Assembly (NCBI GenBank): GCA_017743475.1
Contig: JAGHYV010000036.1
Location: forward strand, 1 to 44,948
From: Roseiflexus sp.
GTDB taxonomy: Bacteria; Chloroflexota; Chloroflexia; Chloroflexales; Roseiflexaceae
DNA length: 44,948 bases
Direction of reading: 5' to 3'
Positions 477 through 44,575 of this stretch are shown here, in pieces. The notes beneath the pieces are model-generated. The model was not told where the DNA came from, did not search any database, and worked only from the letters and a program-made list of their open reading frames with translations. The position numbers and the translations under genes were made by a program. Within the stretch, counting starts at the first letter, position 1. Each line of letters begins with the position of its first letter.

Positions 477-1700
477 ATGAACCGGCGACTGCACCACCCG
501 CACCTGATCATGACCGGCATCGCAATCCTGATCGCAACAGCCATTGCCGCGCCGATCGAACTGCGCGCGCGGCAACGTCCCGCCGTCGCCGATTTCGCCC
601 CGCCGCTCCCGGCTTCCGAGGCGCAGGCAGTCGTCGCTGCCGCGCGCGCCGCCGAACGGATGCAGCAGCAAAGCGCAGCGGAAGCAGTTCCGCTGCCGGC
701 AGTACAAAATATGTACTTCGCGTCCTCCGGCTTTCACATCAGTGATCGCACCGGTTTCCTGAGTTTCTGGCGCAGGAACGGCGGTGAACTGATCTTCGGC
801 TACCCGATCAGCGGCGAACTGATTGAAGACGGGCGGATCGTGCAGTACTTCGAGCGTGCACGCTTCGAGTACCATCCAGAAAACCTGGGAACCGAGTATC
901 AGGTGATGTTGTCGCTCCTCGGCAACGAGACCACCCAGGGGTACGATTTCCCCGACGGTCAACCGACGCAGGGGCGGCTCTACTTCCCCGAAACCCGCCA
1001 GACGCTTGGCGGGAAGTTTCTCAGGTTCTGGCAGAAACGCGGTGGTCTGCGCATCTTCGGCTACCCGATCAGCGAGCCGTTCGAGGAAATCAGCCCAATC
1101 GACGGTCAGGTGCGGATCACCCAGTATTTTGAGCGCGCCCGTTTTGAATATCATCCTGAACAGTTGCCCGCGTTCTACCGTCAGATGGAACGGGCGAACG
1201 GGATCATATTATCCGGGCTTCACGAAGTGCAGCTGGGCGATCTGGGGCGCCAGGCGATGCAGCGCCGTGGCCATACCCCGCAGGCGGTCGGTCCCATGCC
1301 CGGTGCGCCCGCCTGGTCGCCCAAACTGTTCGAGCGCCGGATCGAAGTTAATCTGACGCAACAGATGCTGACCGCTTTCGAGGGGGATGTGCCGGTCTAT
1401 CACGCTCCCGTCGCAACCGGTCGCGATGGCTTCAACACGCCGGCCGGATCGTTTGCCATTTACTACAAACTGCCGAGGCAAACGATGACCGGTTCGGCTG
1501 GCGGCGAGTCGTGGTATGTCCCTGACGTGCCATGGGTTCAGTATGTCGTTGGCGGCGTGGCGCTCCACGGCACCTACTGGCACGATGCCTGGGGCACCGG
1601 AGTGCGCATGTCGCATGGGTGTATCAATCTGAATATCGATGATGCGGAATGGCTCTATCACTGGGCGGACATTGGGACGCGCGTGGATGTCGTGTATTGA
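477..1700 (+). CDS. L,D-transpeptidase (YkuD domain) with two FGYPIS repeats
   Basis: This is a secreted cell-wall enzyme that forms 3-3 peptidoglycan cross-links or attaches proteins to stem peptides, using a catalytic cysteine. Counted from the ATG at 477 (407 aa), a hydrophobic signal or anchor lies at about residues 10-27. A proline/alanine-rich linker follows. Two tandem repeats of about 70 residues each carry FGYPIS and QYFERARFEYHPE (about 85-150 and 175-240). The YkuD domain fills the last 120 residues, with the catalytic pattern HGT at about 364 and SHGCINL around Cys382. I chose ATG 477 over an upstream GTG (435) because a GAAGGGCGAAGAG stretch precedes it and a -10 box lies at 425-430. 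The repeats resemble LGFP-type wall-binding modules common in Chloroflexota. The family call is firm; the substrate is not known. Confidence 0.88.
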   Translation: MNRRLHHPHLIMTGIAILIATAIAAPIELRARQRPAVADFAPPLPASEAQAVVAAARAAERMQQQSAAEAVPLPAVQNMYFASSGFHISDRTGFLSFWRRNGGELIFGYPISGELIEDGRIVQYFERARFEYHPENLGTEYQVMLSLLGNETTQGYDFPDGQPTQGRLYFPETRQTLGGKFLRFWQKRGGLRIFGYPISEPFEEISPIDGQVRITQYFERARFEYHPEQLPAFYRQMERANGIILSGLHEVQLGDLGRQAMQRRGHTPQAVGPMPGAPAWSPKLFERRIEVNLTQQMLTAFEGDVPVYHAPVATGRDGFNTPAGSFAIYYKLPRQTMTGSAGGESWYVPDVPWVQYVVGGVALHGTYWHDAWGTGVRMSHGCINLNIDDAEWLYHWADIGTRVDVVY

Positions 1701-18127: not shown

Positions 18128-18191
18128 GAGCAGCAGTGTGGGATATGCAGGGGCTACGGGAGGTGATGCGCACACGCAACGGTCAGTAGAA

Positions 18192-18375
18192 AGCGCATGG
18201 GCTGCGGGTCCTTTCCCGCAGTTGACGAGGGTGGAGGTTCCCTGTCGCGCGACAGGGCTAACGTTGGCGTCGCCGACGGAACATCGAGAGATCAGCGGAT
18301 GCCTCCCAGGCGTGCTGCCGCCTGTGAGCGCTCTGGGAAACCCATCCGGCGACGGGTGGAACAAAGCGGAGCGCA
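18192..18375 (+). ncRNA. glmS ribozyme (GlcN6P-dependent self-cleaving riboswitch)
   Basis: The leader of glmS contains the conserved core of the glmS ribozyme. It has A|GCGC at the cleavage site (between 18192 and 18193), GACGAGGGTGGAGGTT (18224-18239) and AACATCGA (18280-18287). GATCAGCGGATGCCTCCC (18290-18307) follows, and its CCTCC is complementary to GGAGG at 18233-18237. Supporting hairpins are CCCTGTC/GACAGGG (18240-18246 with 18251-18257), GTTGGC/GCCGAC (18263-18274), and CCCAG/CTGGG (18305-18309 with 18333-18337). A P4-like stem CCATCCG/CGGGTGG (18342-18348 with 18353-18359) is closed by a GCGA tetraloop. In characterised examples, glucosamine 6-phosphate acts as coenzyme for self-cleavage and the cut mRNA is degraded. 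The class is best known from Firmicutes. The 3' boundary is approximate. Confidence 0.93.
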
Positions 18376-18526
18376 GTCAGCGCCCCTTCCTGTAAGACGC
18401 ATCGAAGACTGTGGATGCCCCGCGCAGTTAGGCGTCATTCTCATGAAGCACGTGCTGGTTCGGAACCGGTTGCGCGGCGTGTAGCGCAGCGCCGCGACTC
18501 TTCGTGCGTGCAGAAAGGAAAAGCGC
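18376..18526 (+). other. Spacer between the ribozyme and glmS
   Basis: This is about 150 bases of GC-rich leader with no ORF supported by a ribosome binding site until the AAAGGAAAA just before glmS. I see no clear terminator. Confidence 0.5.
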
Positions 18527-20371
18527 ATGTGTGGCATTGTTGGCTATATTGGACCGCGTGATGCCGGTGAAGTTCTGCTCCACGGTCTGGGGCGGCTCGA
18601 ATATCGCGGGTATGACTCAGCGGGCATTGCCGTTGATGACGGGCGACAGTTGCAATTACGGCGCAGCGTTGGGAAACTTGCAAATCTGGCGGCACAGTTG
18701 CGGGAACAACCGGTCGTCGGGCGCTGCGGCATCGGGCATACTCGCTGGGCGACGCACGGCGGCGTTACCGAGGAAAATGCGCACCCGCACCGCGACGCCT
18801 CAGGCGAGATTGTCGTGATCCAGAACGGCATCGTCGAAAACTATCTCGAACTGAAGGAGCGCCTGATCGCGCACGGTCATCAGTTTGCATCGCAGACGGA
18901 TACCGAAGTCATCGCCCGTCTCCTGGGCGAATACTACGATGAAACCGGGTCGCTCGAACAGGCGATGCGACGCACGCTCGCCGAGTTGCGCGGCGGTAAT
19001 GCAGTGGTAGCAATGACGCGCCGCGAGCCGGGGCGCATCATTGCCGCGCGCCTGGGGCATGCAGGCGGAATCGTCATCGGTGTGGGCGATGATGAAATGT
19101 TCGTCGCGTCCGACGTGCCGGCGATCCTTGATTATACCCGGCGCGTCATCTTTCTAGACGACCGTGAAATCGCGGTGATCGACGCCAATGGAGCGACAAT
19201 CTCGCGCCTGGACGGAACGCCGGTCATTCGCACTCCCATAACAATCCCGTGGGATCCGGTGTCTGCCGCTAAGGGCGACTTCAAGCATTTCATGCAGAAG
19301 GAGATCTTCGAGCAACCGCGTGCGCTGACCGATGTGTTGCGCGGGCGGATCGATCTCGACCATGGCGCAGTTCTGCTCGATGAACTTGCCTTCGATGAGC
19401 AGGAACTGCGGCAGCTGGAACGGATCTACGCAGTAGGGTGCGGGACGGCATGGCACGCGGCGCTGGTGGCGAAGTTTGCCATCGAAACGCTGGCGCGATT
19501 GCGCGTCGAGGTAGATTACGGATCCGAGTTCCGGTACCGTGACCCGCTGATCGGCGAGCACGTTGCCGTGCTTGCGATCACCCAGAGTGGTGAAACTGTC
19601 GATACGCTGGCAGCGATGGAAGAAGCGCGGCGGCATCGGGCAAAGAGCATTGCCATCGTCAACGTGGTTGGCAGTCAGGCGGCACGACTGGCGGATGGCG
19701 GAGCAATCTACCTGCACGCCGGTCCTGAAATCGGCGTCGCTTCGACGAAGGCATTCACCACGATGCTGGTGGCATCCTACCTGCTGGCGCTGCGGTTGGG
19801 CGCAGTGCGGGGCGTGATCTCCAACGATGAGGTGCGTCGTTACATTCAGGCGCTGATCGAACTCCCCGGCAAGGTTGAGCGTATTCTAGAGCGCCAGGAG
19901 ATCTACAAGGAACTAGCCGAACGCTACCACAACGTGCGTGATGCGCTCTATCTCGGCAGACAGGTGAACTATCCTGTGGCGCTGGAAGGGGCGCTGAAGC
20001 TGAAGGAGATTAGTTACATTCACGCCGAGGGGTATCCAGCTGGCGAAATGAAACACGGTCCGATTGCCCTGATCGACCGCGATCTGCCGGTGGTGTGCAT
20101 TGCCATGCGCGACAGCGTCTATGAGAAAATGATCTCGAACATTGAGCAGGTTCGGGCGCGCGGTGGGCATGTGATCGCTATTGCTGCCGAGGGTGACGCC
20201 TTGATCGCATCGAAAGCGGATTATGTGATCGAAGTGCCGCAGACGTTGCCGCTGTTGACCCCGGTGCTCACCAGTGTGCCGATGCAACTGCTGGCGTACC
20301 ATATCGCCGTGCGTCGCGGTTGTGATGTGGATCAGCCGCGCAATCTGGCGAAGAGTGTGACGGTGGAATGA
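18527..20371 (+). CDS. glmS: Glutamine--fructose-6-phosphate aminotransferase (isomerising)
   Basis: It makes glucosamine 6-phosphate from fructose 6-phosphate and glutamine, the first step of UDP-GlcNAc and peptidoglycan precursor synthesis. The 614-aa protein has the mature Cys nucleophile right after Met (MCGIVGYIG), GLRRLEYRGYDSAGI-like sequence and GHTRWATHG in the glutaminase domain. Two SIS domains follow, with the TQSGETVDT and STKAFTT segments, and the family ending NLAKSVTVE. Length is typical. It is preceded by a glmS ribozyme that its product should activate, a direct feedback loop. A ferrochelatase-family gene follows 25 bases downstream, probably in the same transcript. Confidence 0.97.
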   Translation: MCGIVGYIGPRDAGEVLLHGLGRLEYRGYDSAGIAVDDGRQLQLRRSVGKLANLAAQLREQPVVGRCGIGHTRWATHGGVTEENAHPHRDASGEIVVIQNGIVENYLELKERLIAHGHQFASQTDTEVIARLLGEYYDETGSLEQAMRRTLAELRGGNAVVAMTRREPGRIIAARLGHAGGIVIGVGDDEMFVASDVPAILDYTRRVIFLDDREIAVIDANGATISRLDGTPVIRTPITIPWDPVSAAKGDFKHFMQKEIFEQPRALTDVLRGRIDLDHGAVLLDELAFDEQELRQLERIYAVGCGTAWHAALVAKFAIETLARLRVEVDYGSEFRYRDPLIGEHVAVLAITQSGETVDTLAAMEEARRHRAKSIAIVNVVGSQAARLADGGAIYLHAGPEIGVASTKAFTTMLVASYLLALRLGAVRGVISNDEVRRYIQALIELPGKVERILERQEIYKELAERYHNVRDALYLGRQVNYPVALEGALKLKEISYIHAEGYPAGEMKHGPIALIDRDLPVVCIAMRDSVYEKMISNIEQVRARGGHVIAIAAEGDALIASKADYVIEVPQTLPLLTPVLTSVPMQLLAYHIAVRRGCDVDQPRNLAKSVTVE

Positions 20372-25138: not shown

Positions 25139-25380
25139 ATGAAGATTGGAGGATTAAGTTCAGTGTAGCGAATTGACCGTCGAGCTCGTGGAGATTGAGG
25201 ACTTAATCCAGTATGCGCCTCTCGCCGTCGGGATAAAGCCCTCCGCTATCTAAAGCGAAGCCCGCCTGCGCGGGCTAGACCGGATTATTTATTCAAAGAC
25301 CATAAGCCCTCGGCTCTTCAAGGCGAAGCCCGCCTGCCAGGCGAGAGCGGAGTAATTGCTCAACAACTACGAGCCTGCTT
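25139..25380 (+). repeat. Composite interspersed repeat (AGCCCGCCTGCGCGGGCT family), locus 1
   Basis: The locus has two units of GGAGATTGAGGA.TTAATCC / AAGCCCTC.GCT / AAGCCCGCCTGCGCGGGCTAGA.CGGATTATTTA.TCAAAGACCATAAG type. The hairpin core lies at 25259-25276. The same family occurs inverted at 28420-28555 and again at 44322-44575. Confidence 0.75.
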
Positions 25381-29456: not shown

Positions 29457-30089
29457 GGTCGTCCAATCCCGCGCTCGATGGCTATTATCTTGACCTGCTC
29501 GCCACCGATCTGACTGCGCTGGTTGAAGCTCTCAGGTTGACGCGGCTGGCAGTCATTGGGCATTCAATGGGCGCATCGACGGCGGCGATTGCCGCAGCAA
29601 CCCATCCCAGTATGTTTCGCTGCGTCATTCTGGAAGATCTGCCCTGGTGCAGCACACTGCCTGCCAATATGCTGGACGTGGCAACAACACGCACCTTATG
29701 GCGGGAAGACCTGCTGGCGATGCAAACGATGGATAACGCGGCGCTGCTGTCGCAGTGTCGCGCTGAATCTCCGGGATGGAGTGACGAAGATTATGCACTG
29801 TGGGTAGAGTCGAAGAAAGCCGTTAATCCCGACGCGCTCGACATTCTTCCATCATTTGTGCGTTTGTGGCCCGAAGATGTGCGCTGGATCGACTGTCCGC
29901 TTCTTATCCCGACCAGTGAGCCAGAACGAGGGGCGCTTTTCGACGCCAGCGCTGAGCAGATCGTCCAGCGGATGCGTCCTGACGTGCAGGTCGTGCGCAT
30001 CCCCGGTGCGATGCATCAGGTGCGCCGGGAAGGGTTTGTCGCGTATCTTAACTGTGCGACGTTTTTTGAAGGATGCTGTGTCAGATTAG
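29457..30089 (+). pseudogene. Alpha/beta hydrolase, 5'-truncated and frameshifted
   Basis: The remaining part reads from DGYYLDLLATDLTALVEAL through the nucleophile elbow GHSMGAS to the histidine region GAMHQVRREGFVAYL. It resembles esterase/haloperoxidase-like hydrolases. The N-terminal strands and the oxyanion motif are missing and replaced by the repeat at 29369-29456. Near 30045-30060 the natural ending (VRRFLKDAVSD, TAG 30087-30089) is in another frame, while the long reading runs on into the convergent HAD gene. Both ends are therefore damaged. Confidence 0.7.
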
Positions 30090-30841
30090 CGCGGCGGAAG
30101 TTGACCAGAGGCTTCCAGCAGCGACACGATTTCGCCGGGATTTTCGATAATAGCATCAGGACGAATGTCTGGCGGGAGCGGAAATTCAGGACTGCGCACC
30201 CAAATGGCGCGCATACCCGCCTGTTGTGCGCCACGGATGTCTTCTTTGGGGTTATCGCCAACGAAGATGGCTTCTGTCGGGCTAACGCCGAAATGTTCAA
30301 GGACGTGGAAGAAAATCTGGGGGCGGGGCTTCCAAATGCCCAGGTCGCCTGAAAAAACAGCATACTCAATGTACGACCACAACCCCAGTGCCATCAGGTC
30401 TTCACGGTGCAGGTCACCAGGCCAGATGGTGTTGGAGATCATACCGGTATGAATACCGCGCGCGCGCAACTCTGCTAGCGCCGTTGCTGCTCCAGGCATA
30501 GCGGAGACGCCATCGCGTAAGGGGCGGGCATAGTGGTGGACTGCCTCAATCAGCGTGCTCTCCGGAAGATCCAGGTCATGATCTGCTGCTCCAGCTGCAA
30601 TCCAGTCAACCGCGCGCAGGTTGATATGTCCGCCGGTCGCCTGTTCCCATCCCTGCGCCAGGCGCTCGAACATACGTTCCACAAACGCTTCTTCCCCGTC
30701 GGCGATCGGATGTCCCTGCTCTACCAGGTAGCGGTACAGTCCGCGAATGCCGCGTTCCTCGAACTCGCGCCAGGCGCCGTTTCCGAGGCGCGGGTATCGC
30801 AGCAGTGTTCCACCCATATCAAAAATGACCGCCCGTATCAT
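30086..30841 (-). CDS. HAD-superfamily hydrolase (phosphatase-like)
   Basis: The 251-aa protein has HAD motif I as VIFDMGGTLL (nucleophile Asp8; the usual second acidic residue is Gly). Motif II is MISNT, motif III is the K in WKPRPQIF and motif IV is FVGDNPKED. This places it with small HAD phosphatases of the FDMGGTL/FDxGGT subgroup; substrate unknown. A start at 30841 is set by GGGAGGAAG and by ATGA overlap with the stop of the 89-aa gene upstream. It is the last gene of the minus-strand operon and overlaps the broken hydrolase end by 4 bases. Confidence 0.85.
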   Translation of the reverse strand: MIRAVIFDMGGTLLRYPRLGNGAWREFEERGIRGLYRYLVEQGHPIADGEEAFVERMFERLAQGWEQATGGHINLRAVDWIAAGAADHDLDLPESTLIEAVHHYARPLRDGVSAMPGAATALAELRARGIHTGMISNTIWPGDLHREDLMALGLWSYIEYAVFSGDLGIWKPRPQIFFHVLEHFGVSPTEAIFVGDNPKEDIRGAQQAGMRAIWVRSPEFPLPPDIRPDAIIENPGEIVSLLEASGQLPPR

Positions 30842-31107
30842 GGCTTCCTCCCTGCTGCCTCGATGATCTGACGCAACCAATCCTGCCATGCGCGCCGGTT
30901 CTCGATAACGATCTGCCGTACCCGTTCCAGGTCACCGTCAATCGCTGCCTGGTGTGAGCGTGCCAGCGACTCCTGAAACGCACGCGCCATATCGGCAACG
31001 GCGCGACGCATCTCAGCGTTCAGGGCGCGCTGTCGTTCCAGTTCGGATTGCAGATAGGCGATCAAACGGCGCGCCTCATCGAGTGTCAGGTTCTCGTCCA
31101 GTTCCAT
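30838..31107 (-). CDS. 89-aa coiled-coil protein of unknown function
   Basis: The reading starts MELDENLTLDEARRLIAYL and is almost entirely helical and charged, predicting one long coiled coil (about residues 10-80) with a WQDWLRQIIEAAG end. There is no known domain. It lies between the FemAB gene (stop 5 bases before) and the HAD gene (ATGA overlap), so it is translated as part of that operon. A longer ORF upstream on the same frame, 222 aa, is mostly a shadow of the FemAB gene. Confidence 0.65.
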   Translation of the reverse strand: MELDENLTLDEARRLIAYLQSELERQRALNAEMRRAVADMARAFQESLARSHQAAIDGDLERVRQIVIENRRAWQDWLRQIIEAAGRKP

Positions 31108-31112
31108 CGTCC

Positions 31113-32201
31113 TTACCCTATGACGCGCTGTCGCCAGAGCGCGTAAAGCAGCGGCATGCCTATCTGATCGTATGCTGGCAGATAGCGGATTGTGATGCCG
31201 CCAAATCCCTTTTTGAAGCGATACACGCCGTACAATGGGTCGTGCTGCGCTGCTGCTTCGAGGCACGCACGCGCGGCTGGATCTGCAGTTCCAGCAGCCT
31301 GCCCGATGGCGTCGGGGATGCCCCAGAAATCGTACCATGCGGCACCGCGCGCGCGCGCCCACTGGATCGCGCGCCACTGAATGGCATGCTGGGCACCGCA
31401 TTGTAATCCATCGGTCGTTGAACCGCTGTACAGGTAGATTGCCATCGTGCCCCATACTGCCGTTATCGCAGTCGCTACCGGCGCGCCTCGATATTCCGCC
31501 AGCCATAAACGCACTGCATCGCCAAAGAGTTCCAGGACGCTAGCATAGTAGGTGAGCGAGTGAATGGCAAACCCTGCGCGCCCGCTCGTTGCCTGCATGA
31601 TGGCATAGAACGCATCAAGATCGGCGGGTGTGCCGCCTTCGCGCACCTCGACCCCTTCGCGCAGTGCGCGTTTGATATCAGCGCGATGACCTTTGCTCAT
31701 TGCTGCTAGGAGGCGCTCAGGTTCTGGCGTCAGGTCGAGATGGATAGTGCTGCGCGGCTGAATGGGGGGCATCGGTCGCAGCGCGTGGGTCATCAGGAGG
31801 GAATGCAGCGCGGTGGCGCGCGGATCGTGTTCCGTGATGTTTGGCTCGACGCGCACAAAGACTGCGCGGCGACGCCGTCCCAACTGGATCAGATCGTCCA
31901 GCAGCAGGGTATCGATGAGCGGGTCGCCACTAAAGAGCGGACCGCGCGGGACATACAATGCACTCAACGCGAGCCGCTGTTTTTCCAGCACCAGCGCGCC
32001 AGCCTGAATAGTTTCGCCAGCAACGACTGCGCGCAGGTGTGGTTTCCAGCCGAACCGTCCCTTGAGTGCTCCCCATTGCGACGATTGCAGCAGATGACCG
32101 TCGGGATGCGCCTCCACGAATGCATCCCAGGCTGCCGGATCAGGAGTGACAACCGTCATCGCAACGGTTGGGGATACACATTCTGGATGTCGCTCGATCA
32201 T
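31113..32201 (-). CDS. FemAB/FemX-type peptidyltransferase (GNAT-like)
   Basis: It may add amino acids to peptidoglycan precursors from aminoacyl-tRNA, or be a lipid-linked acyltransferase. The protein (362 aa from ATG 32201) has the FemAB order. Near the start comes AHPDGHLLQSSQWGALKGRFGW and VPRGPLF. Later come KGHRADIKRALREGVEV and, near the end, LYSGSTTDGLQCGAQHAIQWRAIQWARARGAAWYDFWGI, the fold's acceptor-side signature, then YRFKKGFGG. ATG 32201 overlaps the PIG-L stop (ATGA). An earlier in-frame ATG at 32213 is possible. Substrate is unknown; amino-acid addition is a family inference. Confidence 0.85.
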   Translation of the reverse strand: MIERHPECVSPTVAMTVVTPDPAAWDAFVEAHPDGHLLQSSQWGALKGRFGWKPHLRAVVAGETIQAGALVLEKQRLALSALYVPRGPLFSGDPLIDTLLLDDLIQLGRRRRAVFVRVEPNITEHDPRATALHSLLMTHALRPMPPIQPRSTIHLDLTPEPERLLAAMSKGHRADIKRALREGVEVREGGTPADLDAFYAIMQATSGRAGFAIHSLTYYASVLELFGDAVRLWLAEYRGAPVATAITAVWGTMAIYLYSGSTTDGLQCGAQHAIQWRAIQWARARGAAWYDFWGIPDAIGQAAGTADPAARACLEAAAQHDPLYGVYRFKKGFGGITIRYLPAYDQIGMPLLYALWRQRVIG

Positions 32202-32989
32202 GCAATCCGCCATATGCGTTCAGCATATCCGTCGCGTTCCTGCGCCAGTGTCGCATGATATGCAGCGATTGCTGCTTCCATTGCCGCGGTTCCTCCAAAC
32301 AGTGCCTCCATCTGGCTGCGATAGGCAGCGATTGCCGCAATTTTCTTCCGTAATGAGGATGCACCAAACGTCAGGTATTCGGCGACAAGGGTCTGTCCAA
32401 TCTCCGCCAACCGCTGTTCAACAGCCCCAGTTGCCAGCGCGTAGTTGATATCTTCGTAGAACGCAAGGCGATCAGATGGACAGGCGACCGCGCTCTCAAA
32501 GACCGCCAGGTGGTCAACGTGATGACCGACGCCGAGCGGCACGTAGATTGTCGCCTGTGGTGCATGCGCGATCAGCGTGGCAAGCAGGTCGCGCACATGC
32601 AGCAGCAACGGGTCGTCGGGCACCGGACGGTGATAGAGGGTAGCGCGACTGTGGTACGTCTCGGGCATACGGTAGATAGCGTCGAGCCAGTTGGCATAGA
32701 CATAATCGACGCCAAGAATGGTCATTGCTTCAGCATCCTCCGCCCGTCGAACGCGCAGCACCTCATTGGGCGCCAGCCCCCACTCAGCATGAAACTCGAC
32801 CGCTATCGCATTGAAGTTCGTTTCAGAGGGGGACGCCGTGCACAGCGTGATGACCAGCGCCTGGTCCGGCGACGCAGCAATCGTTCCACCGCACGAGAGC
32901 GCCGCATCATCGAGGTGCGGCGAGAGATACACCCGCGCATAGCGTGCCAGATTGACGCGGTTCACAAGATCGGTTGGACGGGTGTTCAT
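32198..32989 (-). CDS. PIG-L family zinc deacetylase
   Basis: It is a Zn-dependent hydrolase of the LmbE/PIG-L family that removes acetyl groups from N-acetylglucosaminyl compounds such as glycolipids, BshB- or MshB-type thiol precursors. The 263-aa protein has the metal motif YLSPHLDDAALSCGG (P-H-L-D-D) and the third ligand in GVGHHVDHLAV. The substrate is not evident; there are no bacillithiol or mycothiol genes beside it. It precedes the FemAB gene with overlap and follows the HEAT gene by 6 bases, so it belongs to a tight operon. Confidence 0.88.
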   Translation of the reverse strand: MNTRPTDLVNRVNLARYARVYLSPHLDDAALSCGGTIAASPDQALVITLCTASPSETNFNAIAVEFHAEWGLAPNEVLRVRRAEDAEAMTILGVDYVYANWLDAIYRMPETYHSRATLYHRPVPDDPLLLHVRDLLATLIAHAPQATIYVPLGVGHHVDHLAVFESAVACPSDRLAFYEDINYALATGAVEQRLAEIGQTLVAEYLTFGASSLRKKIAAIAAYRSQMEALFGGTAAMEAAIAAYHATLAQERDGYAERIWRIA

Positions 32990-32995
32990 CTGGTT

Positions 32996-33925
32996 CTAGT
33001 TGTTCCGCCAATTGCTATCGGGGAAGCCCTCTTCAAGCGTAAGTTCGTTGAGCGCCTCGGCAGCTGCCTGACTGCGCGCTTCGTCTTCGCTGCTGCTGAT
33101 GTGTTGCAGGGTGCGCCGCGCTGTCTCGCCGCCAATCTGACCGAGCGCCCAGATCGCTGCCAGGGCCACTTCAGTATCGGCATCGCTGCACAGGCGCACA
33201 ACACGCGCCACCAGCGAGCGCGCAACGTCTGCCATCTCGCCAGCTGCGCGCGCCGCTTCGTAGCGAAGCGCAGGGGACGGACTCTCGAGTTCACGGCTGA
33301 CAATAGGCAGCCAGCGTGGCAACATCGAGCGCCCCATGGCTACCAGTGCACTTTCGCGCATCAACTGATCACTACTGGCATATGCCAGTTCAATCTGTTG
33401 TTGCACATCATTGCTAGCAGCAAAATAGCCAGCGCTCTCGATAGCGCGACGGCGTACTTCTGTCGGTTGCGACGTATCGTGAATAAGCGTCAGCAACGCA
33501 TCGTGCACCTGTCGCCCATATTCCTCATCGAGTTCATCGATCTCCGCCATATAGGCGAAGCGACCAAGCGCCATGGCTGCGGCAGCACGCACCTGATCGG
33601 CGGGATCATGCAGGAGCGCCAGCAACCGCCGCATGACCGGCAAGTCTGTGCACTCCCACAATCCTTCTATGGCGCTGGCGCGAACCTCTGGGTCGGCATC
33701 GTCGAGCAACCACCAAAACATCGTCGTAAAATCGAGGTCGATATTGTCTTCAGCAAGTTCGACCATCGCGTGCGCAATTTCGGTGCGTCGCCTGACAGGG
33801 ATGCGTTGCCATGTTTCCCACAGTGCATCGCGGTCCTCAGGATTAAGCCCGGAGAACGGGCGTAATTCACGCATCGAAAGATGCTCGCGCGCCGCGAGGG
33901 CGCGCAGGTGAGCAGCAAGATCCAT
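32996..33925 (-). CDS. HEAT-repeat protein
   Basis: The 309-aa protein is built of about six to seven HEAT repeats with the DPADQVRAAAAMALGRF / DADTEVALAAIWALGQIG type of helix pair (about residues 60-290). These repeats form a curved scaffold for binding other proteins. It has no catalytic domain. It likely supports the upstream acidic-tailed protein or another member of this operon. GGAGTGAGAG precedes the ATG. Confidence 0.82.
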   Translation of the reverse strand: MDLAAHLRALAAREHLSMRELRPFSGLNPEDRDALWETWQRIPVRRRTEIAHAMVELAEDNIDLDFTTMFWWLLDDADPEVRASAIEGLWECTDLPVMRRLLALLHDPADQVRAAAAMALGRFAYMAEIDELDEEYGRQVHDALLTLIHDTSQPTEVRRRAIESAGYFAASNDVQQQIELAYASSDQLMRESALVAMGRSMLPRWLPIVSRELESPSPALRYEAARAAGEMADVARSLVARVVRLCSDADTEVALAAIWALGQIGGETARRTLQHISSSEDEARSQAAAEALNELTLEEGFPDSNWRNN

Positions 33926-33937
33926 CGTTGTCGTCTC

Positions 33938-35803
33938 TCACTCCTCGTCGTCGAAATCTTCTTCGTCCATTTTGTCGTCCTCTTCTTCCTCCGTCAACGA
34001 CGGCGGCGGCGTGTAGCGCCACCATCCTGGATGGCCCTCATCAGGGGTGAAGTTATCGCCGTCGATCAGGAGGTGGGTCAGATACTCGCGCGATACCGGG
34101 CGCAGGACATTCATCGCAACAAACAGGGCATTGAAGGGCGCTGCATACTGTGGCTCGGTGCGTGTGCCGACCGGCGTGCCGATAACCTCAAAGACATGTT
34201 CGAGCATAAGGTCGGCTTTTCGTCGTTCATTCATCGAGAAGACCTTGAGATTGCGCAGTCGCCCGTACTGCTGCTGGTTCACCAGCATATCGGTATCGAC
34301 GACACAGGCGAACGAGATATTGGCGAAGGTGAATTTCGGCGTCTTCTTGGTTTCGTCGAGCACCAGCAGGCGATCCTGCGTTTCCGCCTGTTCTTCGTAG
34401 GTAATGGCGAACGTGCGCGGATCATCAGTGCGCATCAACGTGATAAGCGCGCCGGGAACCAGGTAATCGTGGAATAGCGTCTCAAGCCCCTGCAACCATC
34501 CGCCGCGGTTCCCTGTCGGATAGCGCAGTTCGACCAGCGCACTAATATAGTGCTGCGGCATCTCAAAGCGCAACACGGCGCTGCGTTGATCGGCGAGCAG
34601 CGGTTGCGGCAGAAGCGCCGACAGCGCGCGAGTCAGCGGCAGGATGCCATATTCCCATTCAAAGAATGTCAAGACGTGGCTAACCTGCCCGGTCTTACGG
34701 ATTGCCTCGACGCTCTGTTCCGCCAGGCTATCATCGAACCCTTCTTCGATATACCCGGCGAGTTGCCCCATTTCGCTTGCCTTGACACGCCTGGTGCCTA
34801 TAGATGGCAGGTTCCGCACCGACCAGAGGCGCGCACCTTCCACACCGACGAACTCGAAATCCTTTTCGCGGCTCAGGCGATAGTTGAGCGCAAAGCGGAA
34901 GATTTCGTAATCGCTCTGGCGCGGATTGTGGTAGAAGATGTCGGCGATGATCTGCGTATCGAGGAGCGGCTCGCCTACTTCCTTAATATAGTCACTGATC
35001 CGCCGCAAGTCATTTTTGCCGAAACTCACTAGTGCTGCTTCGGGGAAGGCCTGATTACCGAACAGCACCAACCGGCGCAGCGGATCATTCTCAATTGCTA
35101 TGCGCAATTGCGACATAAGCGTCTGACCATGTTGCGCCATCAACTCTTCGACTGGACGGCGCAGATCGATCTGCAGACCATTGGGCAACGCGATCACGGT
35201 GTTGATCTGTGCAGGCTCGCTTGGCGGAGCAGCTGGCGGAGCAGTAACTTGCTCTTCTTCGACGACCGGGGCTGCTGCGACCGATTCTCCTACCTGCGGT
35301 GTCTCTTCGACGGCTGTAGCCGGAGTTTCGGCCGGCGCCTCGACAGTCACCGGGATCAACCCGGCTTGTTGCTGCCAGTATTCAGAGATGAACACTGGCT
35401 CGACTGTCGTCAACGCAGGGCGAGTCGTCGTCACCACGACGCTGAGATCGTCCACAGGAAGCGGATTCTCAGGCTCGTGCAGGCGTTGCTTGAACGTATG
35501 AACGGTATCGATCTGGGGCGGAATGTATCGTCCGCGCCGCGACGTTATGAAAATGACATCGCCGTTGTTTTCCTCGCGTGTAAACACCTGACTGTTCACG
35601 CGCAACGCCTCGTCGATCAGGCGCGCTGCCTCCTCAGGGTCGATCTGACGCTGTCGAGCATAAAAATCCGCCAAGTTGCGCAATGTCTGACGAATAGGCG
35701 TATCGAGCGCGAACAATCGCCCCTGCGCCGTCATCAGGTGAAAGATCTCTTCTGCCAGCGCTCGCTGCTCTTCGTTACCGGTAAACGTCGGACGCTCGAT
35801 CAT
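33938..35803 (-). CDS. 621-aa protein with a strongly acidic tail, function unknown
   Basis: I do not recognise this protein. An N-terminal helical region (EEIFHLMTAQGRLFALDTPIRQTLRNLADFYARQRQ, about 15-50) leads to a winged-helix-looking segment (DEALRVNSQVFTREENNGDVIFITSRRGRYIPP). A Pro/Ala/Glu linker spans about 160-215. A second conserved block follows (SDYEIFRFALNYRLSREKDFEFVGVEGARLWSV, about 310-345), then the region with ADLMLEHVFEVIG. It ends in an Asp/Glu-only tail (EEEEDDKMDEEDFDDEE). The layout recalls RNA polymerase delta (HARE-type helix domain plus acidic tail), but that is a weak analogy. It starts at 35803; an upstream in-frame reading (35845) is unlikely. It overlaps the 59-aa gene by 29 bases. 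Confidence 0.6.
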   Translation of the reverse strand: MIERPTFTGNEEQRALAEEIFHLMTAQGRLFALDTPIRQTLRNLADFYARQRQIDPEEAARLIDEALRVNSQVFTREENNGDVIFITSRRGRYIPPQIDTVHTFKQRLHEPENPLPVDDLSVVVTTTRPALTTVEPVFISEYWQQQAGLIPVTVEAPAETPATAVEETPQVGESVAAAPVVEEEQVTAPPAAPPSEPAQINTVIALPNGLQIDLRRPVEELMAQHGQTLMSQLRIAIENDPLRRLVLFGNQAFPEAALVSFGKNDLRRISDYIKEVGEPLLDTQIIADIFYHNPRQSDYEIFRFALNYRLSREKDFEFVGVEGARLWSVRNLPSIGTRRVKASEMGQLAGYIEEGFDDSLAEQSVEAIRKTGQVSHVLTFFEWEYGILPLTRALSALLPQPLLADQRSAVLRFEMPQHYISALVELRYPTGNRGGWLQGLETLFHDYLVPGALITLMRTDDPRTFAITYEEQAETQDRLLVLDETKKTPKFTFANISFACVVDTDMLVNQQQYGRLRNLKVFSMNERRKADLMLEHVFEVIGTPVGTRTEPQYAAPFNALFVAMNVLRPVSREYLTHLLIDGDNFTPDEGHPGWWRYTPPPSLTEEEEDDKMDEEDFDDEE

Positions 35804-35954
35804 CCTCTTGTTCTCCTGCGAGCACCAGCTCGCGCAGAATCTCAAGATAACGTTCCGTCAGGCTTTGCAGGTCTTGCGGTTGCCCGGTGGCGCGCACCTG
35901 CTGCGCCAGTTTATCCATCGCGGTTTCCCCGTAGATGATGTTCTTGCCATCCAT
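35775..35954 (-). CDS. 59-aa protein, first gene of the minus-strand operon
   Basis: The ATG at 35954 opens MDGKNIIYGETAMDKLAQQV and ends in a helix and acidic tail (LRELVLAGEQEDDRASDVYR). No known family is recognised. AGGA lies 8 bases upstream, and the -10 at 36033-36025 rules out the longer 83-aa reading starting at 36026. Overlap with the next gene suggests translational coupling. Confidence 0.6.
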   Translation of the reverse strand: MDGKNIIYGETAMDKLAQQVRATGQPQDLQSLTERYLEILRELVLAGEQEDDRASDVYR

Positions 35955-36024
35955 CCGTCGATCCTGACTGTTGAAACACGCAATGCGCAGCCCGACATAA
36001 GCGCCGATGCTGCGCTGAATGAAC

Positions 36025-36033
36025 ATTATACCA
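36025..36033 (-). promoter_or_regulatory. Extended -10 promoter of the minus-strand operon
   Basis: On the minus strand this reads TGG-TATAAT, a perfect extended -10. Transcription would begin near 36018 and could cover all seven genes down to 30086. Confidence 0.7.
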
Positions 36034-36253: not shown

Positions 36254-37345
36254 ATGCCATCAGAACGTCCAATCTACCCGTTCAGTGCGCTGGTCGGTCA
36301 GGAACGTCTCAAACGCGCGCTTATCTTGAATGCGATTAACCCGCGTATCGGCGGTGTTCTAATCCGCGGTGAAAAGGGCACTGCGAAATCTACCGCTGTG
36401 CGAGGGCTTGCTCGCCTCCTGCCGCACATTACCGTTGTCGCCGACTGCCCGTACAGTTGTCCGCCGGATCGCCCGGCAATGATGTGTGAGACGTGTAGTG
36501 CGCGGTTGCGCCGTGGTGAGGAGTTGCCGGTTGAGGAACGCCCAACGCGCCTGGTTGAGTTGCCGGTCGCTGCATCAGAAGATCGCGTTGTTGGTTCGCT
36601 TGACCTTGAGCATGCGATAACGGAAGGGCAGCGCCGTTTTGAACCGGGATTGCTTGCGCAGGCGAATCGCGGGTTGCTGTATGTGGATGAGGTGAATCTG
36701 CTCGATGATCACCTGGTCGATGTGTTGCTCGATGCTGCTGCGATGGGGGTCAATACGGTCGAGCGCGAGGGCATCAGCGTCTCGCATCCGGCACGCTTTA
36801 TTCTGGTTGGCACGATGAACCCCGAAGAGGGGGAATTGCGTCCGCAGTTGCTCGACCGTTTTGGACTGGTGGTCGAAATCAGCGGTCTGACCGACATTGC
36901 CGGGCGAGTGGAAGTCATCGAACGTCGTCTGGCATATGAGAGCGATCCCGACGCCTTTGTAGCGCAGTGGCGGCATGAAGAAGAGGATCTGGCGCAGCGT
37001 ATTATTGCGGCGCGTGCCCTGCTTCCAGCAGTCACGATTTCGCGTGGCGATATGGCAGCTGTGGCAGCGCTGGCGCTCGAACTGGGCGTCGATGGGCATC
37101 GCGCCGATCTTGCGATCCTTGAAACGGCGCGCACGCACGCTGCCTGGTCGGGGCGTACCCGTCTGACAGTCGAGGATATTCGGTTGGCAGCGGAACTGGC
37201 GCTGCCCCACCGGATGCGGCGGCAGCCGTTTACGGAAGTCCGGCTCGACGAAGCGCGCATCGGGCAGATTCTGGAGCGCGTGAAAGGCGAGATGGGCGAC
37301 GAGGCGCCATCCGCTGGGAACGTAAAAAAAAAGTTGACAGCCTGA
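36254..37345 (+). CDS. Chelatase small-subunit-like AAA+ ATPase (ChlI/BchI type), 5' part of a frameshift chlD
   Basis: Read alone, the frame gives a 363-aa AAA+ motor that would power Mg or Co insertion into a tetrapyrrole with a large subunit (BchH or CobN). Walker A GEKGTAKS is at 39-46 and Walker [11 protein letters not shown] at 141-150. The arginine-finger region [17 protein letters not shown] lies at 189-205. Four cysteines (C65, C69, C78, C81) form a CxxxC...CxxC pattern that may bind metal. The frame ends right after nine A residues (37324-37332) with VKKKLTA. In the -1 frame the sequence runs straight into the VWA ORF that follows. This is the dual-product chlD arrangement proposed for many cobalamin producers. 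Whether it serves Mg (bacteriochlorophyll) or Co (B12) is not decided. Confidence 0.85.
37324..37333 (+). promoter_or_regulatory. A AAA AAG slippery site for -1 frameshifting
   Basis: In the ATPase frame the codons read GTA AAA AAA AAG. The heptamer A AAA AAG (37327-37333) is the classic dnaX-type -1 site and stands at the only place where the two frames can join. A GTTGAC/GTCAAC stem (37333-37338 with 37352-37357) starts at the last base of the site and could help. After a -1 slip, the frame stays open to 38328. Confidence 0.7.
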
Positions 37346-38328
37346 ACAACGGTCAACCGGATGGCGAGCAGCGGTCTGGCAAGGAGAGCAATGCACCGCC
37401 TGCGATGCATGCATCGACCAACACCGATGCTGCTTCCAGTAGTGGCGGCAGGGGACAGGGCGGCAAAACATTCGCAAACGACCCGACGTTCCAGCCACGC
37501 AGGATCGAAGGCTCGCGCGACCGGTTGCAGCGCCGGTCGCCTGGCAGACGTACACGCACCCGTACGACACGCAAGCAGGGACGCTACATCACCAATCGTC
37601 CGGCGGATCGCATTACCGACCTGGCACTGGACGCAACCCTGCGTCAGGCGGCGCCGCATCAACGTCGTCGGCAGGAGGAACGCATCGCTACAGAGCGCAA
37701 ACGACGTATCATTATCCATCGAAGTGATCTGCGCCAGAAGGTGCGGGTGCGGAAGACGCGCAACGCAGTTTGTTTCGTGGTCGATGCCAGCTGGAGCATG
37801 GCGGCGGAAGAGCGGATGCGCGCAACGAAAGCGGCAATCCTGTCATTGTTGCGCGATGCCTATCAGCGGCGCGACCGAGTTGGTCTGGTCTCGTTCCAGC
37901 GTGATTATGCCACGCTGCTGCTGCCGCTGACGAATAGTGTCGAACTGGCGCAGCGCCGGTTGCAGCAGATGCCGACCGGCGGCAAAACGCCGCTCTCGCG
38001 CGGTCTGTTGATGGGGTACGAAGTGCTGGAGCGTGCGCGCCGTCGGGATCCGGAAGTGATGCCGCTACTAGTGTTGCTGACCGATGGGCAGGCAAATGTA
38101 TCGATGGGCGATCTGCCGCCGCAGGTGGAAAGTTACGCACTCGCCGATTTTATTGCAGCGCAGTCGATACCGGCGGTCGTGATCGATACTGAGCATCCAA
38201 TCTTCGAGCGCGGGCTGGCGCGCCAGCTAGCGTATCACCTGAAGGGCAAGTACTACCGGCTCGAAGATGTGCAGGAACGCGGTCTCGCCGATCTGGTTCG
38301 AGCGGAGTTACGTGACCACGCACGGTAG
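37333..38328 (+). CDS. VWA (von Willebrand A) half of ChlD/CobT-like chelatase subunit
   Basis: The medium subunit bridges the ATPase ring and the large subunit, and its VWA domain holds Mg at a MIDAS site. Fused by -1 slip to the ATPase, the product is about 691 aa, the usual ChlD size. The join is followed by a basic, Arg-rich linker. The MIDAS pattern DxSxS lies in VVDASWSM (D511, S513, S515 of the fusion), with the [11 protein letters not shown] and LLTDGQANV motifs after it. Internal ATG 37405 is the first in-frame ATG, but it has no well-placed ribosome binding site (AAGGAG at 37381 is 18 bases off and fits an out-of-frame ATG at 37391). That supports synthesis by frameshift rather than independent initiation. 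A plain two-gene reading (37405-38328, 307 aa) remains possible. Confidence 0.8.
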
Positions 38329-44321: not shown

Positions 44322-44575
44322 GCTGATGGAGATTGAGCATTTATTCCGCTCTACGGCGCTAGCCGTGGGGCTGATGGAGATTGAGAAATAAATCCGCTAT
44401 ACGCCTCTTGCCGTGGGGCTAAAGCCCTCGGCTATGGAATGCAAAGCCCGCCTGCGCGGGCTATGATGGATTATTTACTCAAAGACCATAAGCCCTCGGC
44501 TATGGAATGCAAAGCCCGCCTGCGCGGGCTAGAGCGGAATAATTACTCAAAGGCCATAAGCCCTCGGCTAGACCC
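44322..44575 (+). repeat. Composite interspersed repeat (AGCCCGCCTGCGCGGGCT family), locus 3
   Basis: The locus has several units: GGGCTGATGGAGATTGAGAAATAAATCCGCT, then AAGCCCTCGGCTATGGAATGCAAAGCCCGCCTGCGCGGGCT with TATTTACTCAAAGACCATAAG. Hairpin cores lie at 44445-44462 and 44513-44530, and the units are tandem. It is the most complete copy of the family also seen at 25139-25380 and 28420-28555. Confidence 0.8.

Follow-up and report, generated by a model that had tools for sequence, protein, structure and literature searches.

A seven-gene cluster headed by a previously unclassified gene pair

The window analysed here, a stretch of 44,948 nt from a Roseiflexus genome of 4.97 Mb, contains seven tightly packed genes on its minus strand. 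All seven frames are open and are either spaced 5–12 nt apart or overlapping, in agreement with the operon proposed by a first-pass annotation of this DNA. The first gene, which we designate S59 (35775..35954, minus strand), codes for 59 amino acids and overlaps by 29 nt a 621-aa gene designated L621 (33938..35803, minus strand), whose product ends in the stretch rich in D and E that the same annotation had pointed out. After a gap of 12 nt follows a HEAT-repeat protein (32996..33925, minus strand; PF13646, E 1.4e-25), then, 6 nt further on, a PIG-L family deacetylase-like protein (32198..32989, minus strand; PF02585, 46.4 bits against a Pfam cut-off of 28.2), in which what we take to be the HxDD motif reads SPHLDDA. 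A FemAB family aminoacyltransferase-like gene (31113..32201, minus strand; PF02388, 162 bits, cut-off 24) overlaps PIG-L by 4 nt.

The last two genes are restricted to part of the lineage. One, 5 nt after FemAB, encodes an 89-aa predicted coil protein (30838..31107, minus strand) that has no Pfam family above cut-off. The other, overlapping it by 4 nt, is a HAD-family hydrolase (30086..30841, minus strand; PF00702, 91.1 bits, cut-off 26.4). The HAD protein begins FDMGGTLL, with Gly at what is presumably the second Asp position of the usual DxD motif, so whether it carries out ordinary phosphatase chemistry is uncertain.

Searches of L621 and its relatives against Pfam, NCBIfam, PDB sequences, PADLOC and PHROGs returned no family, and we found no paper on the S59-L621 family in the open-licence literature.

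Distribution of L621 within and beyond the class

L621 was detected in 57 of the 60 relatives searched and in 116 of 120 genomes of the class; counting only good genomes, defined by a completeness of 90% or more and a contamination of no more than 5%, the figures are 47 of 47 and 86 of 86. Each genome has a single L621 locus, barring pieces split by contig ends or by a poorly aligned linker. A protein shared by all good genomes of a bacterial class yet lacking a family name represents a gap in the biology of the phylum. Its universality would suit a housekeeping role as well as that of a local regulator.

Across the phylum, the L621 profile matched 49 of 301 genomes, with nine weak matches (E 5e-8 to 1e-3) among them, and these led to a divergent form of 523–527 aa outside the class. 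A profile of this shorter form matched 66 of the 301 genomes, 36 strongly (E below 1e-40), and it recovers the L621 of the window at E 4.6e-13. The two forms align in hhalign over L621 profile columns 231–612 with a probability of 99.6% (E 5.1e-25). The records behind 66 loci recovered from named genomes are titled Chloroflexota or untitled bacteria, bar one Thermoflexus and three with the titles of other taxa (two contigs of Gracilibacteria and one Singulisphaera), and record titles can mislead. The genomes outside the class may be Anaerolineae. In two of them (G215 and G250) only about the first half of the homologue is present, profile positions 5–261.

The neighbours of the homologue outside the class differ from those within it. 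In 30 of 30 such loci (L106–L135; L105:10032-10466 is another instance of the gene), the homologue is followed, at gaps of −19 to 50 nt, by a protein of 138–153 aa that has no family above cut-off. Since this partner is a different protein, any link to the cell wall may be specific to the class. S59 could conceivably be a detached N-terminal piece of the homologue outside the class, and the profile comparison is suggestive only: all forms of S59 together align with that protein at E 1.8e-4 (hhalign probability 48%), the order forms alone at E 0.039 (1.3%), and the control comparison of S59 with the Chloroflexia L621 gives E 0.0081.

Conservation of the S59-L621 pair and its neighbourhood

The constant element of the locus is the gene pair at its head. 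Wherever at least 250 bases upstream were available, S59 precedes L621: this holds for all 92 distinct relatives, 75 loci of the window's order and 17 of other orders. Two of the 75 (L194 and L196) have a truncated L621 frame, with S59 some 0.9–1.1 kb upstream of the part retained. The overlap between the two genes is 4 nt in 62 of the 75 order loci, compared with 29 nt in the window; in other orders S59 ends 4–147 nt ahead of L621, so the overlap is not a class-wide trait.

Downstream of the pair, HEAT, PIG-L and FemAB are the usual genes. Among 20 order loci, S59 and L621 were always kept, HEAT 18 times, PIG-L and FemAB 17 times each, the 89-aa gene eight times and HAD seven times. A wider count, with one locus per distinct protein and denominators limited to loci with enough flanking sequence, gives HEAT in 57/62 order loci and 10/14 loci of other orders, PIG-L in 42/49 and 1/14, FemAB in 39/46 and 5/13, the 89-aa gene in 11/46 and 0/13, and HAD in 5/44 and 0/13. 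Because the 89-aa and HAD genes are this sparse, and were found in none of the 13 loci of other orders, the seven genes do not form a single conserved set: of the gene order that the first-pass annotation proposed to check in other Chloroflexota, the head of the operon is kept and the full complement is not.

That the cluster could be one envelope or stress pathway, as the first-pass annotation suggested, is not supported for the seven genes as a unit, and a link to the envelope gains from what surrounds the pair in relatives. There, MurE is often the next gene after the cluster (10/19 order loci and 8/12 of other orders in the wider count) and a ROK sugar kinase often precedes it. We confirmed MurE in two relative loci (TIGR01085, 484 and 496 bits against an NCBIfam cut-off of 257) and the ROK kinase likewise in two. 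Herpetosiphon loci carry S59-L621 without HEAT or FemAB as neighbours; two of them (L073 and L075) gave weak partial MurE matches (E 9e-11 and 1.2e-10), which were left uncounted, and two others (L045 and L167) gave none.

The pair, previously unclassified, is kept together throughout a bacterial class beside cell-wall enzymes. Known cell-wall clusters with MurE and FemAB-type peptidyltransferases are among its nearest likenesses, since FemAB, and in relatives MurE, likewise adjoin S59-L621; unlike those clusters, this one is headed by a regulator-like pair and a HEAT protein, and the window itself is without MurE. If instead there were no special unit here, the locus would be an ordinary envelope operon that includes one conserved hypothetical protein, as the close packing of the genes would allow. 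The genes flanking the cluster in the window (BchI-like, VWA, S1), however, are kept in just 3 of 20 order loci against 92 of 92 for S59-L621, and with synteny so set against it we regard this explanation as highly improbable.

In two loci (L015 and L162), L621 and HEAT are read as one 942-aa frame, which may reflect sequencing error or a real fusion. We considered it as proof of a partnership between the two proteins and gave it no weight because at the join the acidic tail seems to be translated in a shifted frame, with basic, methionine-rich residues where relatives have D and E.

Predicted fold of L621

Structure prediction of L621, which the first-pass annotation had proposed to model with the 59-aa and HEAT proteins, yielded a confident model in which winged helices are arranged around a B3-type pseudobarrel. 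A first AF2 model from 21 sequences had a mean pLDDT of 70; a second, of residues 200–605 from 51 sequences, reached pLDDT 93.4 and pTM 0.86. Winged helix 1 (residues 9–94; 35522..35779, minus strand) is predicted in the first model with block pLDDT mostly 77–94 and aligns to winged helices with VIA-align Z 7–8. Winged helix 2 (residues 260–330; 34814..35026, minus strand), in the second model, superposes on the TFIIE chain 5fyw_X over 59 residues at 1.7 Å, with Z 7.7. Winged helix 3 (residues 523–600; 34004..34237, minus strand) is matched by VIA-align at Z 7–8.3 to cullin WH, FoxP, Fur-type and MecI domains.

Between the second and third of these lies the predicted pseudobarrel (residues 370–472; 34388..34696, minus strand), which appears in both models although they were made from different alignments. 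Its VIA-align matches reach Z 10.4 and 10.2 to ARF1 in the two models, 9.9–10.1 to VAL1/FUS3 and 8.9–9.4 to the HpLlaJI N-domain, at 2.3–3.4 Å rmsd over 91–102 residues, values that place the predicted barrel among B3-type pseudobarrels. For the second model the first 17 rows are all B3 domains or the HpLlaJI N-domain on the same roughly 100 residues, and the rows after them score 8.3 and cover another part of L621. Foldseek gave best E-values of 0.0039 and 0.007, both at probability 1.00 and none under 0.001. Membership of the B3 family is not supported by sequence: no B3 family in Pfam was found with 44 domain sequences at E up to 10, and the region's only matches to PDB sequences at E up to 10 were myosin light chains (E 0.7 and 1.1). 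A profile of the region recovered no B3 protein.

If these models are right, residues 370–472 share their fold with the B3 domains of ARF1, VAL1 and FUS3 and with those of BfiI, NgoAVII, UbaLAI and the HpLlaJI N-domain, but the L621 barrel differs from them in being net acidic, in being set among winged helices and in having no sequence match to them. In restriction enzymes the B3 domain binds the target site (PMC4267653). Unlike those enzymes, L621 is universal in a bacterial class, and no nuclease family was found in it. Several winged helices on one chain also recall TFIIE, RPC6/C34 and ESCRT-II, from which L621 is set apart by its barrel; its matches to them are to single domains only and of middling Z.

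Net charge and the case for a scaffold

Every folded domain of L621 is net negative: the barrel carries −3 in the window and −5.4 on average in the order, and the winged helices −2 to −3. Such acidity is unusual in proteins that bind DNA; no other evidence speaks as strongly against L621 being one of them, although it does not settle the matter. It also makes a serious rival of the idea that L621 is an interaction scaffold, whose winged helices and barrel would dock partners such as HEAT and S59 in an envelope or chromosome complex. Winged helices act as docking modules in ESCRT-II, cullins and condensin-like complexes, and the winged-helix matches of L621 include ESCRT-II, Wadjet JetA and cullin; HEAT, moreover, is the most constant downstream neighbour. 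Set against the scaffold are the B3 barrels matched, which are DNA-binding domains, and the basic residues, at least 90% conserved, on the helix by which winged helix 2 is predicted to recognise DNA (R303, R309 and R312, with K314 just after). Weighing these, we judge a scaffold unlikely while still allowing it substantial weight.

The acidic tail and the likeness to RNA polymerase delta

The acidic C-terminal tail of L621 spans 19 residues in the window (603–621; 33941..33997, minus strand). Its mean charge is −9.8 in 50 members of the order against −0.1 in 17 members of other orders, and at least eight D or E among the last 20 residues occur in 27 of those 50 and 1 of the 17, and the tail hardly occurs beyond the window's order, being missing in 16 of 17 relatives from elsewhere. 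The first-pass annotation had likened the layout of L621 to RNA polymerase delta. Membership of the delta family is not supported, both for this reason and since HARE-HTH (PF05066) had no match in 21 L621 members at E up to 1; PF05066 had no match in the window's own genome either.

What survives of the comparison is a faint likeness of winged helix 2 to HARE-HTH. Against a profile of up to 17 HARE-HTH domains from other Chloroflexota, winged helix 2 scores E 0.0012 in hhalign (probability 20%), and the corresponding segment of the form outside the class E 1.4e-4 (52%), while values of 0.1 or worse come from winged helix 3, the pseudobarrel and unrelated controls, and winged helix 1 scores 0.099. 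Because the middle segment 200–262 (E 0.0033) and S59 (4.2e-4) score as well, with the full-length class profile at only 0.025, the signal from winged helix 2 is suggestive and no specific proof. L621 does pair a winged helix with an acidic tail as delta (RpoE) does; unlike RpoE, it has 621 aa, its similar winged helix is internal, its tail is nearly limited to one order and PF05066 is missing.

Another possibility is that L621 acts generally in Chloroflexota, as a factor of transcription or of the nucleoid that resembles delta or TFIIE in role and not in descent, and that its cell-wall neighbours reflect growth-linked expression only. One locus per genome, universal in the class and kept in other Chloroflexota, is what such a factor would predict, and the TFIIE superposition and HARE-HTH likeness of winged helix 2, together with the tail in the window's order, point the same way. 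No HARE-HTH family match was obtained, however, the tail is missing in 16 of 17 relatives outside the order and a Z of 7.7 may reflect a common arrangement, and we consider a general factor decidedly improbable.

Promoter and leader repeat

The extended −10 element TGG-TATAAT that the first-pass annotation had read as the promoter of the operon is present at 36025..36033 on the minus strand, and in an alignment it is kept by all six Roseiflexus upstream sequences as well as by one close relative. A simple −35/−10 scan missed it because it has no good −35. In most members of the order TGn followed by TATAAT, TACAAT or TATACT precedes S59. At nine loci the TGn element was not found in the stretch scanned; one of these, L172, has it just beyond that stretch, and most of the others carry TATAAT without TG. 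Within the operon region there are six promoter-like sites, compared with 3.1 (sd 1.7) in shuffles and none with more than 9/12 matches, so that internal promoters are neither shown nor excluded by the sites found.

The stretch from the promoter to S59 contains an inverted repeat, GCGCAGC-N17-GCTGCGC (35985..36015, minus strand), which is also found in 5 of 5 other Roseiflexus upstream regions and in L033. In many members of the order the leader repeat takes the form AGCAGGGAGG-loop-CCTCTCTGCT. An exact pattern search matched only 1 of 6 genomes because Chloroflexus members have CTCTCTGTTT, and a covariance model was used in its place; it was built on 23 of 56 leaders (alignment A6), two rows of alignment A5 (L040 and L160) that did not align to the stem having been left out. 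At E 1.1e-5 or better this model places the AGCAGGGAGG...CCTCTCTGCT element in 21 genomes, several of which themselves supplied sequences to it. The element adjoins the L621 coordinates in those 21 genomes, upstream of S59-L621, and no second copy was found at that threshold among 70 genomes. Repeats upstream of S59 vary by family and were not seen in one Roseiflexaceae lineage. A search for a universal operator upstream of S59 gave inverted repeats that differ among families. At five loci (L041, L043, L046, L048 and L169) the leader upstream of S59 holds a long near-perfect hairpin of the type AGAGCGCAAAGAAGAGCAGC...GCTGTTGTCCTTTGCGCTTT.

The repeat could be read as an RNA element, a riboregulator or attenuator that would control the operon and on which L621 does not act, a reading compatible with any account of L621 itself. 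Among 22 distinct rows, 98.6% of stem cells are paired against 49–66% when the stem is slid, substitutions mostly preserve pairing, and at one stem position a G.U pair predominates (21 of 22 rows). Family groups were set by hand, with loci placed nowhere else put in the group called Chloroflexaceae; in that group fold z averages −2.21 over 30 leaders and falls below −2 in 20 of them, against 1 of 30 controls. In five leaders of another family the mean is −4.07 and all five fall below −2; the window's family has 6 such leaders out of 20, and a fourth group has 1 out of 6. The window leader, however, has z of only −1.16 and no Rfam match, and both arms of the repeat are conserved in sequence, as expected of a DNA operator. 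Double-sided change is confined to a single pair, a level that 425 of 500 shuffles reach too; since such changes are no commoner than in shuffles, an RNA structure in the leader is unproved. We find an RNA element rather unlikely.

A possible regulator tied to peptidoglycan synthesis

The reading we prefer, at slightly less than an even chance, is that S59-L621 is an autoregulated DNA-binding regulator of Chloroflexota tied to peptidoglycan synthesis. S59 and L621 would then act as one functional unit, with S59 translationally coupled and presumably in contact with L621. In L621, a disordered acidic linker is predicted to sit after winged helix 1, and DNA would most likely be bound by L621, with winged helix 2 and the B3 barrel as the best candidates. 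Together with S59 it could control transcription, that of its own promoter included, whose early transcribed region bears the inverted repeat. Since the pair appears to head an operon of envelope enzymes (FemAB and PIG-L, joined in relatives by MurE and, upstream, by a ROK sugar kinase), its likely job would be to tie transcription to the supply of peptidoglycan precursors, and we infer that some signal from peptidoglycan synthesis reaches it. In its favour count the conservation of L621 and of the pair, the predicted folds, the neighbouring genes, the leader element and the basic residues of winged helix 2; against it, besides the acidic domains, stand the missing B3 sequence match, the Foldseek E-values, the universality of L621, the differing surroundings in Herpetosiphon and outside the class, the S59-L621 overlap that other orders do not share and the variable repeat. 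If L621 does bind DNA, the pair may provide a first handle on how envelope synthesis is regulated in these bacteria.

A more far-reaching version, which seems to us quite unlikely, would make S59-L621 an ancient transcription or chromatin factor of Chloroflexota that combines a B3-type barrel outside restriction-modification, autoregulation through the leader repeat and coupling to the cell wall. If true, it would amount to a non-restriction bacterial branch of the B3 fold and would be relevant to the source of the plant B3 domain; B3-type proteins in bacteria outside the restriction enzymes have a bearing on how this major plant transcription-factor fold arose.

Other features of the window

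Rfam CRISPR-DR28 matches at 25254-25277, 44440-44463 and 44508-44531 are palindromic interspersed repeats (gcccgcctgcgcgggc and flanks), and no array of them was seen. A glmS ribozyme match (18181-18384, plus strand; 78.1 bits, gathering 37) lies upstream of a 614-aa frame at 18527. The divergent neighbours of the operon, 36254-37345 and 37405-38328 on the plus strand, match the front (1-325) and back (374-641) parts of one profile, the putative cobaltochelatase TIGR02442, and judging by these matches they appear to be a chelatase-like AAA/VWA protein encoded as two genes.
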